This document shows, piece after piece, positions 53,863 to 63,880 of a stretch of DNA of 64,000 nt. The translations under genes and the position numbers were made by a program. The notes beneath the pieces were generated by a model. The model searched no databases. It saw only the letters and a list, made by a program, of their open reading frames with translations, and was not told the DNA's origin. The stretch is from positions 124,001-188,000 of the forward strand of contig CANLCJ010000002.1 of the NCBI GenBank assembly GCA_947489085.1, written 5' to 3'. The DNA comes from an uncultured Flavobacteriaceae bacterium. Its GTDB lineage: Bacteria; Bacteroidota; Bacteroidia; Flavobacteriales; Flavobacteriaceae. How positions within the stretch are numbered: the stretch's first letter is position 1; each line of letters begins with the position of its first letter.

Positions 53863-54795
53863 TTTTTTAACACTACAGTTTTCATCCTAACAAGGAGGGA
53901 CTAAGGGAGGTGTTACTTATAATTTCAAAACAGAGAAATAACAGACCTCCAACACACCCCTTAATCCCCTCTTCCTAAAGGGGAAACGCATACCCTATAT
54001 TATTATTAAACAACCCTCTTTTTTAACACTACAGTTTCCATCCTAACAAGGAGGGAGTAAGAGTGGTGCTTAAATAACTTTAAAAATAGACACATCAAAA
54101 CGCAACAAACACTCCCCCTATTCCCCTCTTTCTAGAGGGGAACCGCATACGTTATCTTATTTTTAAACAACTCTATTTTTTAACGCTACAGTTTCCCTCC
54201 TAACAAGGAGGGAGTAAGGGAGGTGTTTAAATAACTCTTAAAAGAAATACTCTTAAAACATCAAAACACATCGTACACTCCCCTTACTCCCCTCTTTATA
54301 GAGGGGAAACGCACTCCCCTATATTATCATTAAACAACTCTCTTTTTTAACACTACAGTTTCCCTCCTAATAAGGAGGGATTAAGGGAGGTGTTAATAAC
54401 AACTTCAAAACAGAGAAACAACAGACCCGCAACACACCCCTTACTCCCCTCTTCCTAGAGGGGAAAACGCATACACTATCTTATCCTTAAACAACTCTAC
54501 TTTTTAACACTACAGTTTCCCTCCTAACAAGGAGGGAGTAAGGGTGGTGTTAATAACAACTTCAAAACAGAGAAACAACAGACCCGCAACACACCCCTTA
54601 CTCCCCTCTTCCTAGAGGGGAAAACGCATACACTATCTTATCCTTAAACAACTCTACTTTTTAACACTACAGTTTCCCTCCTAATAAGGAGGGATTAAGG
54701 GAGGTGTTAGAATAACTCTAAAACAGAAACACCCTTAAAACATCAAAACACATCATACACAACTTAGCTCCTCCTTTTTAGAGGGGGAATTCGAG
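53863..54795. repeat. Palindromic tandem-repeat array, left block (6 units)
   Basis: Six units of about 154-168 bases. Each unit has a first hairpin (core CCCTCCTAACAAGGAGGG or a variant) beside a GTAAGGGAGGTGTT-like stretch. A short variable linker follows, then ACACCCCTTACTCCCC leading to a second hairpin (core CCCCTCTTCCTAGAGGGG). An AT-rich link that ends TTTTTTAACACTACAG comes before the next unit. The stretches beside the two hairpins are complementary, so a unit can fold either into two small hairpins or one long one. Units at about 54346-54500 and 54500-54656 are nearly identical in their second halves, which points to recent duplication. No long reading frame is encoded. The array lies between the RND terminator and the DUF559 gene. 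Confidence 0.85.
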
Positions 54796-54806
54796 CACCA
54801 TGTATT

Positions 54807-55184
54807 TCAAATACTATGACGATTTTCAAATTGGATAATATAATCTTCTATAGCTCTTAAAACATTGTCTATATCGTTCATAATTTGATAATCAGAAAAT
54901 CGCAATACCTCTATCCCTAATTCATTCAATCGTTTTGTCTTCAGTTCATCTTTTTCGTAAACTTCCAATACCTCATGGGAATAACCATCACATTCTATAG
55001 CCAGTTTGAGCCTATTACAAAAAAAATCAACAATATATTCATCAATGGGCTTTTGTCTATGAAAATCATAGCCATACATTTGATCTCTTCTCAAAAATGT
55101 CCACAGTTTAATTTCAGATTTTGTAGAATTATTTCGAAGTTGTCTTGCTAAAATTTTTAGTTTAGGATTATAGTAGATTTTCAT
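54807..55184 (-). CDS. DUF559 (Vsr-like) endonuclease-domain protein
   Basis: 125 residues, a single DUF559 domain. Conserved residues are Glu in SEIKLWTFLR (residue 24), RQKPIDEYIVDFFC (43-56, with Asp53 a candidate catalytic residue), LAIECDGYSH (61-70, with Glu64 and Asp66) and RLNELGIEVLRF (85-96). The fold belongs to the PD-(D/E)XK class together with very-short-patch repair endonuclease Vsr. No cleavage site or partner is known. The gene lies inside the repeat array, replacing the AT-rich link between two units, with its 3' end touching a hairpin-bearing unit. That context suggests a role in repeat mobility or homing, but is only suggestive. Confidence 0.85.
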   Translation of the reverse strand: MKIYYNPKLKILARQLRNNSTKSEIKLWTFLRRDQMYGYDFHRQKPIDEYIVDFFCNRLKLAIECDGYSHEVLEVYEKDELKTKRLNELGIEVLRFSDYQIMNDIDNVLRAIEDYIIQFENRHSI

Positions 55185-55257
55185 TATTACTAATTAGATT
55201 AATTATATTAATTTACTTTCAAAAATAAAAGAAAAAGATTTCAAATCATATAATCCA

Positions 55258-55951
55258 ATACCAACTTTCTTTTTTAACAAACAGTTTTCCTCCTACGAGA
55301 CGAGATTGTAAACAATGCTATTTATAGCTTCACACACCCCTTACTCCCCTCTTCCTAGAGGGGAAACGCATACGCTTCCGCATCATTTAATATCCTCTTT
55401 TTTAACACCACAGTTTCCCTCCTAACAAGGAGGGACTAAGGGTGGTGTTCAAATAACGCTAAAATAGAAACACCCTTAAAACAATAAAACACATCACACA
55501 CTCCCCTTAATCCCCTCTTCCTAGAGAGGAAACGCATTCCCTATATTATCATTAAACAACTCTATTTTTTTAACACTACAGTTTACCTCCTAACAAGGAG
55601 GGATTAAGGGAGGTTTTCAAATAACGCTAAAATAGAAACACCCTTAAAACAATAAAACACATCACACACTCCCCTTAATCCCCTCTTTCTAGAGGGGTAA
55701 ACGCATTCCCTATATTATCATTAAACAACTCTATTTTTTTAACACTATAGTTTCCCTCCTAATAAGGAGGGAGTAAGGGTGGTGTTAGAATAACTCTAAA
55801 ACAGAAACACCTTTAAAACATCAAACACATCACACACTCCCCTTACTCCCCTCTTTATAGAGGGGAAACGCATTCCCTATATTATCATTAAACAACTCTA
55901 CTTTTTAACGTTACAGTTTCCCTCCTAATAAGGAGGGAGTAAGGGAGGTGT
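55258..55951. repeat. Palindromic tandem-repeat array, right block (5 units)
   Basis: Continues the array on the far side of DUF559. The first unit is degenerate (its first hairpin is broken near 55285-55310). Three full units follow, starting near 55398, 55566 and 55734. The last unit is half, starting near 55899 and ending after the first hairpin at about 55951. Period is about 165-168 bases, slightly longer than on the left. The aspS promoter begins about 90 bases later. With the left block the array has roughly eleven first-type and ten second-type hairpins. Confidence 0.83.
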
Positions 55952-62461: not shown

Positions 62462-63880
62462 ATGAAACTGAAATTTTCTTATTTCCTATTAATACTCTTT
62501 ATTCCAAATACTGTTATTGCGCAAGTACATGAATTATTTTACGATAATGGCAAAATAAAAGAAGTAGGAACATTTACTAATGCTAAAAAAACTGGAGAGT
62601 GGCGCTATTTTTATAAAAATGGTCAATTAAAACACACAGGTGCTTTTGTTCTAGGCAAAAAACATGGAGAATGGAAAACCTACAGCAAAAATGGTACGAT
62701 ACAAGAATTTAGCTCTTACAAAAATGGCAAAAAAAATGGAGAGTGGCAATTGTACTACAGCAATGGGAAACTTAAACGTATTTTCTTTTACAGTGATGAT
62801 TTGAAAGTTGGCAATTGGAAATATTATCATGAAAATGGACAAATAAGCGACCTTAGAACCTTTAGTAATGATACGCTAGTTGGAAAATGGGAGGCATTTT
62901 ACGATAACAATCGACCGAAGCTTGTTGAAACGTATAAAAATGGCAAAAAACATGGCATTTTTAAAACTTATCATAAAAATGGAGAATTAAATAGTCTTAG
63001 AACCTATGACAACGATACGCTTGTTGGAAGATTAGAGGAGTTTTACAACAACAAACAACTGAAGTTTGTTGGAACGTATAAAAAAGGCAAAAAACATGGT
63101 GTTTTTAAGACTTATCATAGAAATGCTCAATTAAAATGTTCTTACAATTATATGAATGACAAAGCACATGGAACTACCAAATGTTTTTATAAAGAGGGAA
63201 ACTTAAGTAATATTGGAGTGTACAACGCTGAAGGAGAAGGCGCATTCAGGTTTTTCTACAAAAACGGGAAATTGAACTCTACATGTACTTATAAAAACGG
63301 TGTTATGATAAACGAAAGCAAATCGTATTACCATAACGGTAATCTTAAAAGCGTTGTAGCGTTCAAAAATGGAGAAATTCATGGTGAATGGAAAGAATAC
63401 CATCCCAATGGGACCTTACACAGAATAAAATATTTTGAAGAAGGTAAATTCATGAATATTACATCTTGTTTTGACGATAAGGGCAATTCTTTACAAAAAG
63501 GCACTCTAAAAAATGGGAATGGAACGGACAGATCTTACTATAAAAATGGCACTCTAAAAGCAACAGGGAACTATAGTAAGGGTTACAAATCAGGTACTTT
63601 TAAAGTGTTCCATTCTAATGGTAATTTAAGTGAAGAAGGCCTTTACTTAAACAACCAACCAACTGGAAAATGGAAAATTTATCATAAAAACGGTGCTATA
63701 CACCAAATTAGGCTTTGGAAAGACGGCAAATTAATGGAATTACTTGTTTATAAAGATATTAACGGTAAGGATTACGACAAAGGCACTCTAAAAAATGGCT
63801 ATGGCAGTTTCCATCAATATGACAAAAATGGCAAACGAAAAAGTACAAAGCATTACCGAAAAGGACGTTTAGTTAGATGA
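62462..63880 (+). CDS. Secreted YwqK/MORN-like repeat protein
   Basis: 472 residues with a signal peptide (KLKFSYFLLILFIPNTVIAQ). The whole mature part is about twenty copies of a 20-24 residue repeat: a core GxWKxYxxNGxL with variations such as KTGEWRYFYKNGQLKHTG, HGEWKTYSKNGTIQ and VGNWKYYHENGQI. This pattern is the MORN-like YwqK family, in which short beta-hairpins form an elongated solenoid. YwqK in Bacillus is called an antitoxin, but these long exported versions are probably structural or binding proteins at the cell surface. No sorting signal is visible at the C-terminus. Confidence 0.8.
   Translation: MKLKFSYFLLILFIPNTVIAQVHELFYDNGKIKEVGTFTNAKKTGEWRYFYKNGQLKHTGAFVLGKKHGEWKTYSKNGTIQEFSSYKNGKKNGEWQLYYSNGKLKRIFFYSDDLKVGNWKYYHENGQISDLRTFSNDTLVGKWEAFYDNNRPKLVETYKNGKKHGIFKTYHKNGELNSLRTYDNDTLVGRLEEFYNNKQLKFVGTYKKGKKHGVFKTYHRNAQLKCSYNYMNDKAHGTTKCFYKEGNLSNIGVYNAEGEGAFRFFYKNGKLNSTCTYKNGVMINESKSYYHNGNLKSVVAFKNGEIHGEWKEYHPNGTLHRIKYFEEGKFMNITSCFDDKGNSLQKGTLKNGNGTDRSYYKNGTLKATGNYSKGYKSGTFKVFHSNGNLSEEGLYLNNQPTGKWKIYHKNGAIHQIRLWKDGKLMELLVYKDINGKDYDKGTLKNGYGSFHQYDKNGKRKSTKHYRKGRLVR

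Follow-up and report, generated by a model that had tools for sequence, protein, structure and literature searches.

A palindromic repeat array around a DUF559 nuclease gene in a Flavobacteriaceae bacterium, probably a selfish element

The repeat array in the window, by which we mean the whole stretch of 64,000 nucleotides analysed from an uncultured Flavobacteriaceae bacterium, probably belongs to a selfish palindromic element that carries its own nuclease and spreads by cutting and repair. We observed an association between DUF559 genes and palindromes, co-divergence of the two, in-frame insertions in conserved genes, mixed occupancy of one such site, purifying selection on the nuclease and a predicted nuclease fold, while cleavage and movement are inferred only.

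The array of hairpin units is 2.1 kb long and contains two kinds of hairpins, A and B, each with a C/G-rich tail. In total, ten A hairpins are well preserved, with 0-3 mismatches to the consensus, as are nine B hairpins; in addition there is a decayed A hairpin near 55282, recognized by reading, and a decayed B hairpin at 54756-54793. The array noted originally is confirmed. The features are as follows, in window coordinates:

53863-55951, no strand: entire array of palindromes, including the DUF559 gene (sequence reading and repeat analysis)
53876-53913, plus strand: A hairpin with tail, copy 1 (2 mismatches)
53953-53990, plus strand: B hairpin with tail, copy 1
54032-54069, plus strand: A hairpin, copy 2 (3 mismatches)
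54110-54147, plus strand: B hairpin, copy 2
54189-54226, plus strand: A hairpin, copy 3 (A-pattern match)
54276-54313, plus strand: B hairpin, copy 3
54356-54393, plus strand: A hairpin, copy 4 (A-pattern match)
54389-54527, no strand: 139-bp stretch with an exact copy 157 bp downstream (putative recent duplication)
54433-54470, plus strand: B hairpin, copy 4
54513-54550, plus strand: A hairpin, copy 5 (A-pattern match)
54590-54627, plus strand: B hairpin, copy 5
54670-54707, plus strand: A hairpin, copy 6 (A-pattern match)
54756-54793, plus strand: decayed B hairpin adjoining the 3' end of the DUF559 gene (11 mismatches)
54807-55184, minus strand: DUF559 (PF04480) gene coding for 125 aa, with a fold predicted to be Vsr/EDxHD-like and the conserved residues retained (E 1.6e-31, pLDDT 88.3)
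55282-55299, plus strand: decayed A hairpin on the 5' side of the DUF559 gene (read from the sequence; repeat family D5)
55333-55370, plus strand: B hairpin, copy 6
55411-55448, plus strand: A hairpin, copy 7 (A-pattern match)
55499-55536, plus strand: B hairpin, copy 7
55579-55616, plus strand: A hairpin, copy 8 (A-pattern match)
55667-55704, plus strand: B hairpin, copy 8
55748-55785, plus strand: A hairpin, copy 9 (A-pattern match)
55835-55872, plus strand: B hairpin, copy 9
55914-55951, plus strand: A hairpin, copy 10, at the end of the array (A-pattern match)

Away from the gene, the A hairpins are spaced by 156-169 bp, the exceptions being 612 bp across the DUF559 gene and 129 bp at the adjoining decayed A hairpin. 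The longest exact internal repeat, which starts at 54389 with an offset of 157, is to judge from its sequence a recent tandem duplication, in agreement with the recent expansion inferred originally from two nearly identical neighbouring units. The A and B hairpins are inverted repeats of each other over approximately 36 nt and are 70-78% complementary in the listed pairs; two A-link-B stretches that were folded as single-stranded DNA obtained z-scores of -4.2 and -4.6, with no shuffled sequence folding as well. Elsewhere in the window, at 62824-63173, a sequence of about 144 bp is repeated in tandem, in approximately two copies.

A 31-nt pattern for the A hairpin, with up to three mismatches allowed, gave ten matches in the assembly (3.65 Mb, 135 contigs, 98.6% complete), all of which were located in the array and on the plus strand, as compared to none for the same pattern read backwards. 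A search with full units recovered only weak and short matches elsewhere (21-33 nt, E 0.04-1). The outcome that would have spoken against the original prediction, a repeat at thousands of sites without DUF559, was not seen: both searches place the repeat at the array locus only, although missed copies cannot be excluded because the assembly is in 135 contigs. The array follows an AcrB-family efflux gene and precedes aspS, so the earlier description of the surroundings as two housekeeping operons is loose. By reading, both neighbours are kept without an array between them in 7 of 11 relatives from the same genus, and the sequence upstream of aspS differs in the other four. In a separate comparison, two of the relatives (G000 and G001; L185, L186) were 97.7% identical over 3.28 kb from about 80 bp past the array (window position ~56033 onward), against approximately 80% identity in recG; going by these identities, this stretch likely arose by recombination and has one boundary close to the array.

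The DUF559 gene is the single one in the assembly and is placed in a short B-to-A link, with the decayed B hairpin on one side and the decayed A hairpin on the other, as originally noted for a nuclease gene inserted in the link between two units. Its product matches DUF559 with 108.8 bits (curated cut-off 20.6); apart from a sub-threshold match to MTES_1575 there was no other Pfam match, and none to the Vsr domain at E <= 0.001. An AlphaFold2 model of the protein (pLDDT 88.3) had three structural matches at E <= 0.001, namely the DUF559-type structure 3hrl and two chains of the homing endonuclease I-Bth0305I, and weaker matches to PvuRts1I, mitoribosomal proteins and Vsr. The predicted fold resembles that of I-Bth0305I (3r3p; Foldseek E 2.4e-5, TM 0.66/0.82), and profile searches recovered 3hrl with E 1e-28 and I-Bth0305I with E 5.1e-7. 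Residues E24, D53, E64, D66, H70 and D79 are all present in the window protein, and across other domains D53 is conserved in 178 of 178, E64 in 177 of 178 and H70 in 172 of 176. The dN/dS ratio of the gene is 0.036-0.062 in comparisons to four of five relatives, the fifth pair not being computable, which indicates purifying selection on the nuclease, albeit from pairs with saturated dS.

To what extent palindromes accompany DUF559 genes in other genomes was estimated from several samples. Among 149 genomes of the same family, 54 contain DUF559 at E <= 1e-10. In the genus, 11 of 12 genomes matched the DUF559 profile, with 26 matches in total, of which 21 (in 10 genomes) are DUF559 proper according to Pfam, while the five partial matches are true Vsr proteins and were excluded from the pooled set. 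The family and genus searches together provided 107 loci, of which 105 had enough flank for analysis and two short-flank rows were left out. Hairpins were required to be perfect, with an arm of at least 7, a loop of at most 8 and an arm G+C content of at least 50%, and to be located within 250 bp. With this rule, 58 of the 70 free-standing DUF559 genes have a palindrome, on both sides in 39, and so do 24 of the 35 copies in frames of more than 300 aa, on both sides in 12; no perfect hairpin was found within this distance for the remaining 12 free-standing and 11 embedded genes. Close to the gene there are 3.66 hairpins per kb, as compared to 0.23 at a distance of 600-1500 bp. By the same rule, none of the five true Vsr loci of the genus, each examined over 3.1 kb, has a hairpin.

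We also examined contig loci from many phyla, which represent the best 80 of at least 577 and are therefore not a random sample; nine without full flanks were excluded, leaving 71, and one row is identical to a row in the other sample. In the best 80, hairpins number 6.4 per kb over the first 150 bp and 0.3-0.4 per kb at distances above 1 kb. Any palindrome within 200 bp was present at 69 of the 71 loci, and one with pyrimidine-rich arms (pyrimidine-armed) at 68 of 71, as compared to 22 of 330 nearby ORFs; the corresponding numbers for pyrimidine-armed hairpins on both sides are 38 of 71 and 0 of 330. The second outcome that could have refuted the prediction, DUF559 genes in relatives without the repeat, was thus in general not borne out, and the association is wider than proposed, extending to many phyla and to in-frame copies in conserved genes. 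Comparisons of the two flanks in inverted and direct orientation gave medians of 17 and 19, with a control of 10, and do not settle the orientation. On viral contigs, several of which end near the gene, 4 of 9 relatives (L143, L145, L146, L147) have a pyrimidine-armed hairpin within 300 bp. In a plasmid collection with 34 matching records, six loci were read. A perfect hairpin lies close to the gene at five of them, from N. gonorrhoeae, Sinorhizobium, Picosynechococcus, Pseudanabaena and Azospirillum (without pyrimidine arms in Azospirillum), and the sixth, from E. coli, has imperfect hairpins only.

Protein identity correlates with the k-mer similarity of the adjoining palindromes, with a Mantel r of 0.474 for 150 rows, 0.444 for 75 contig rows and 0.477 for 40 free-standing genes taken one per genome, and none of 2000 permutations reached as high a value in any of the three comparisons. 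Co-divergence is also expected from plain linkage. In genome G011, two DUF559 types (L050, L056) are each associated with a different type of palindrome, which shows that palindrome type goes with the nuclease rather than with the genome. At the level of whole genomes, a single pattern (CCCCTCYN{2,5}RGAGGGG) that was searched for in the 149 family genomes is present in 36 of the 54 with DUF559 and in 13 of the 95 without (odds ratio 12.6, Fisher p 8e-11). It is found in two or more copies in 26 and 3 genomes, and in 279 and 24 copies in total, respectively. As many as 136 of the 279 copies are from one genome, G044, which has three DUF559 genes and in which a tail-plus-hairpin form was common to all 20 sampled sites. 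The pattern was not found in 18 of the 54 genomes with DUF559, and it occurs without DUF559 at the threshold used in G153 (9 copies), G030 (3) and G111 (2); likewise, G005 from the genus contains palindromes but no DUF559 match. Such palindromes without a detected DUF559 gene count against the selfish-element explanation. Two further observations concern individual loci. G001 has palindrome arrays without a DUF559 gene (L197, L199; the first 1400 bases of each were read), its sole DUF559 match being in recG. In G006 (L210), an A-B pair is interrupted inside B by another short sequence, with a CGTC-like repeat nearby, as seen by eye.

DUF559 was also found in frame within conserved genes. The domain is located between RSKLWxK and PPHILVM in recG (as identified by NCBIfam), at the start of the editing domain in leuS and ahead of the B12-binding domain in metH, and it is fused ahead of hemD. 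Other in-frame hosts are HsdR, a DNA methylase and also a type ISP enzyme, and a PALP enzyme, a Mur-ligase-type protein and a SpoU methylase occur as further fusion partners; Pfam searches covered ten examples. A perfect hairpin within 250 bp accompanies 12 of 15 copies in leuS, 5 of 7 in recG, 5 of 6 in hemD and 0 of 3 in metH, which suggests that the ends of embedded copies are often decayed. No intein domain was found in the recG, leuS and metH examples scanned. In a tree of 178 of the 187 domains (those with stops or shorter than 80 aa were left out), five contexts (free, leuS, recG, hemD and metH; 97 labelled rows) require five changes, one more than the minimum, and each site thus has nearly its own lineage. 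As a separate observation by eye, an HsdR protein from Calditrichia (L130) has DUF559 bordered on either side by tandem units that resemble palindromes translated in frame.

The recG site was compared in 11 relatives from one genus, of which four are full, two contain a single palindrome (one like the left end, the other like the right end), one has a remnant and four are empty. Full and single-palindrome alleles are sisters in G007/G011 (support 99/99), as are full and remnant alleles in G001/G000 (99/97). The states require six changes on the recG tree, no fewer than for shuffled labels, and 3 of the 8 inner branches are well supported. Insert identity follows host identity (r 0.83 for recG and 0.47 for leuS), and the insert is closer than the host gene in 0 of 21 recG pairs and 4 of 91 leuS pairs, so that the inserts seem to be of old date and for the most part inherited, with repeated loss. 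For recG, a single early gain followed by several losses would fit, as far as these sequences go. There was no clear co-conversion tract (mild ratios only, of 1.3-1.5 on the 5' side up to 255 bp and of 1.3 in a single window on the 3' side), and neither a target-site duplication nor a pair of empty and full sites among close strains was found. Recent homing into recG or leuS is not supported by the insert and host identities, and the old-looking inserts, together with the lack of a clear co-conversion tract, weigh against the selfish-element explanation to the extent that recent homing has not been demonstrated. In four other genomes the recG site has 6-12 extra residues with no clear palindrome. 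A PPN/PPH difference beside the site was considered as a mark of occupied alleles and dropped, since PPH is the norm at all 29 readable sites among 30 loci.

A selfish element of this kind would have an end module made of a C-rich tail plus a hairpin, two of which would face each other in inverted orientation with the DUF559 gene between them or absent. We infer that the nuclease, with its predicted Vsr/EDxHD fold, may recognize the palindrome cognate to it, probably extruded into a hairpin or cruciform, and cut there. Repair from another copy could then lead to the spread of the element, to array expansion and to hairpins without a gene. Since translation can pass through both the hairpins and the gene without meeting a stop, some in-frame copies may survive in conserved genes, either in tolerant loops or at the ends.

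The alternative that deserves most attention, unlikely as we consider it, is that another enzyme, such as a RAYT-type transposase, or replication slippage drives the palindromes and that DUF559 merely rides between them. Palindromes without a DUF559 match in G005, G153, G030 and G111 would be expected in this case, and the 139-bp exact repeat means that the array could have grown by simple slippage. However, a passenger does not account well for the co-divergence of nuclease and palindrome, for the two DUF559 types with different palindromes in G011 or for the low dN/dS of the nuclease. It is considerably less probable that DUF559 is a Vsr-like mismatch-repair endonuclease maintained for the host, with palindromes that mark a hotspot of breaks. 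Vsr is indeed among the weaker fold matches, and the Caulobacter DUF559 protein VsrA is needed for the DNA-damage response when a cytosine methylase is missing, according to PMC12907096. A housekeeping repair gene is nevertheless difficult to reconcile with the patchy presence of DUF559 in 54 of 149 genomes and with in-frame copies in unrelated genes, and palindromes are missing from all five true Vsr loci in the same genus.

We give very little credence to the hypothesis that the hairpins act at the RNA level, as terminators or mRNA stabilizers unrelated to the nuclease. The hairpins in the window are intergenic and fold well, but no terminator-like sites were detected in the array region (1.7 in shuffled sequences) and no Rfam family reached its gathering score there; moreover, copies are found in frame inside genes, and other ORFs at the same loci rarely have hairpins (22/330). 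Equally improbable in our judgement is a defence or addiction system, in which DUF559 would cut foreign or unmodified DNA and the palindrome would regulate or protect, as in selfish restriction systems. The predicted nuclease fold and the several copies inside restriction-modification genes are compatible with such a role, whereas the palindromes flank the gene as ends, no defence model matched the window protein with confidence (best E 0.005), and with acrB and aspS on either side there is no adjacent partner methylase. An embedded recG copy matched the homing-endonuclease model of the same library (E 2.5e-7).

The selfish-element reading was compared to known systems. As in REPtrons (REP sequences with a RAYT gene), palindromes flank the enzyme gene, on both sides for 39 of the 70 free-standing genes, and copies without the gene are found elsewhere, as indicated by the 136 pattern matches in G044, although the window assembly has only one locus. 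Unlike the REPtrons described in PMC3733652, the enzyme is a DUF559 protein, Vsr/EDxHD-like, rather than an HUH Y1 tyrosine transposase, and the GTAG at the end of the palindrome was not seen by eye in the A or B hairpins of the window, the only units inspected; some copies are moreover located in frame, with the nuclease, inside genes. With the Rickettsia palindromic elements (RPE), which are also treated in PMC10969869, the element shares palindromic DNA in frame in unrelated genes, but the array in the window is itself intergenic. CGTC repeats, with which PMC3733652 connects RPE, are described in that paper as being without a dedicated transposase; here, the nuclease gene belongs to the element, and no CGTC tag was seen by eye in the window units. 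Finally, the predicted catalytic-domain fold is shared with the EDxHD homing endonuclease I-Bth0305I, and occupied and empty alleles exist at one conserved site (recG), as for homing endonucleases, yet the expectation that the insert is closer than the host gene is not met. In contrast to such enzymes and to the Vsr-type enzymes in inteins, the protein has a single domain, with palindromic ends, and the insert stays in frame. A phage-like protein (by reading) in G136 (L300, 2554-4704) contains an intein-splicing match that encloses a DUF559/Vsr-like domain, in keeping with a role of the fold in homing.

The best reading is that the element works like a REPtron or a homing element and belongs to neither, with the cutting and copying inferred: the enzyme differs from that of REPtrons and the GTAG tag is missing from the window units. 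Nor is it an RPE, since it carries a gene, or an intein, no splicing domain having been found in the examples scanned. The original prediction of an undescribed selfish system, similar to REP/RAYT or homing systems with DUF559 as the enzyme, is supported, neither of its two refuting outcomes having been seen; mobility and cleavage are inferred. In the titles and beginnings of abstracts of open-licence papers, to which the literature search was confined, we found nothing that links DUF559 to palindromic repeats.

The same family includes YcjD from E. coli, 3hrl from N. gonorrhoeae and VsrA from Caulobacter. In E. coli K-12, C-rich and mostly imperfect palindromes are located directly after ycjD, and the Neisseria gene likewise adjoins C-rich palindromes. 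By eye, the last codons of YcjD in K-12 match the palindrome tail of strain KE47, in which one such pattern has four matches in the genome, two of them beside ycjD. At least 80% of the ycjD query is held by 3330 of 5426 E. coli genomes. A 47-nt palindrome from the K-12 locus is present in 5375 of the 5426 genomes, at a median of 16 places per genome; it may be the repeat called Box C in E. coli. The absence of ycjD was considered as an empty-site test and remains unsettled: two of the genomes below that 80% limit, read from their annotation, carry an efflux operon beside fabI. No description of these DUF559 proteins as part of a mobile element was found among the papers listed. In experimentally evolved Legionella, a transposase/DUF559 segment is reported to be a mutational and recombination hotspot (PMC12308824).

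With somewhat less than even confidence, we propose that DUF559 nucleases are dedicated mobilizers of a large class of palindromic repeats in many phyla, a third partnership beside REP/RAYT and inteins, which would include orphan palindromes such as the family with approximately 16 copies beside E. coli ycjD. Some bacterial palindromic repeats have no known mobilizer, for example the CGTC class according to PMC3733652. The co-divergence of a nuclease with its palindromes makes this nuclease a concrete candidate for the enzyme behind one large set of them. If correct, the proposal could explain how palindromes enter genes in frame, and it would give a function to a widespread Pfam family of unknown function that includes YcjD. 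For annotation and for protein evolution, it matters that RecG, LeuS, MetH and restriction enzymes can contain in-frame nuclease domains.
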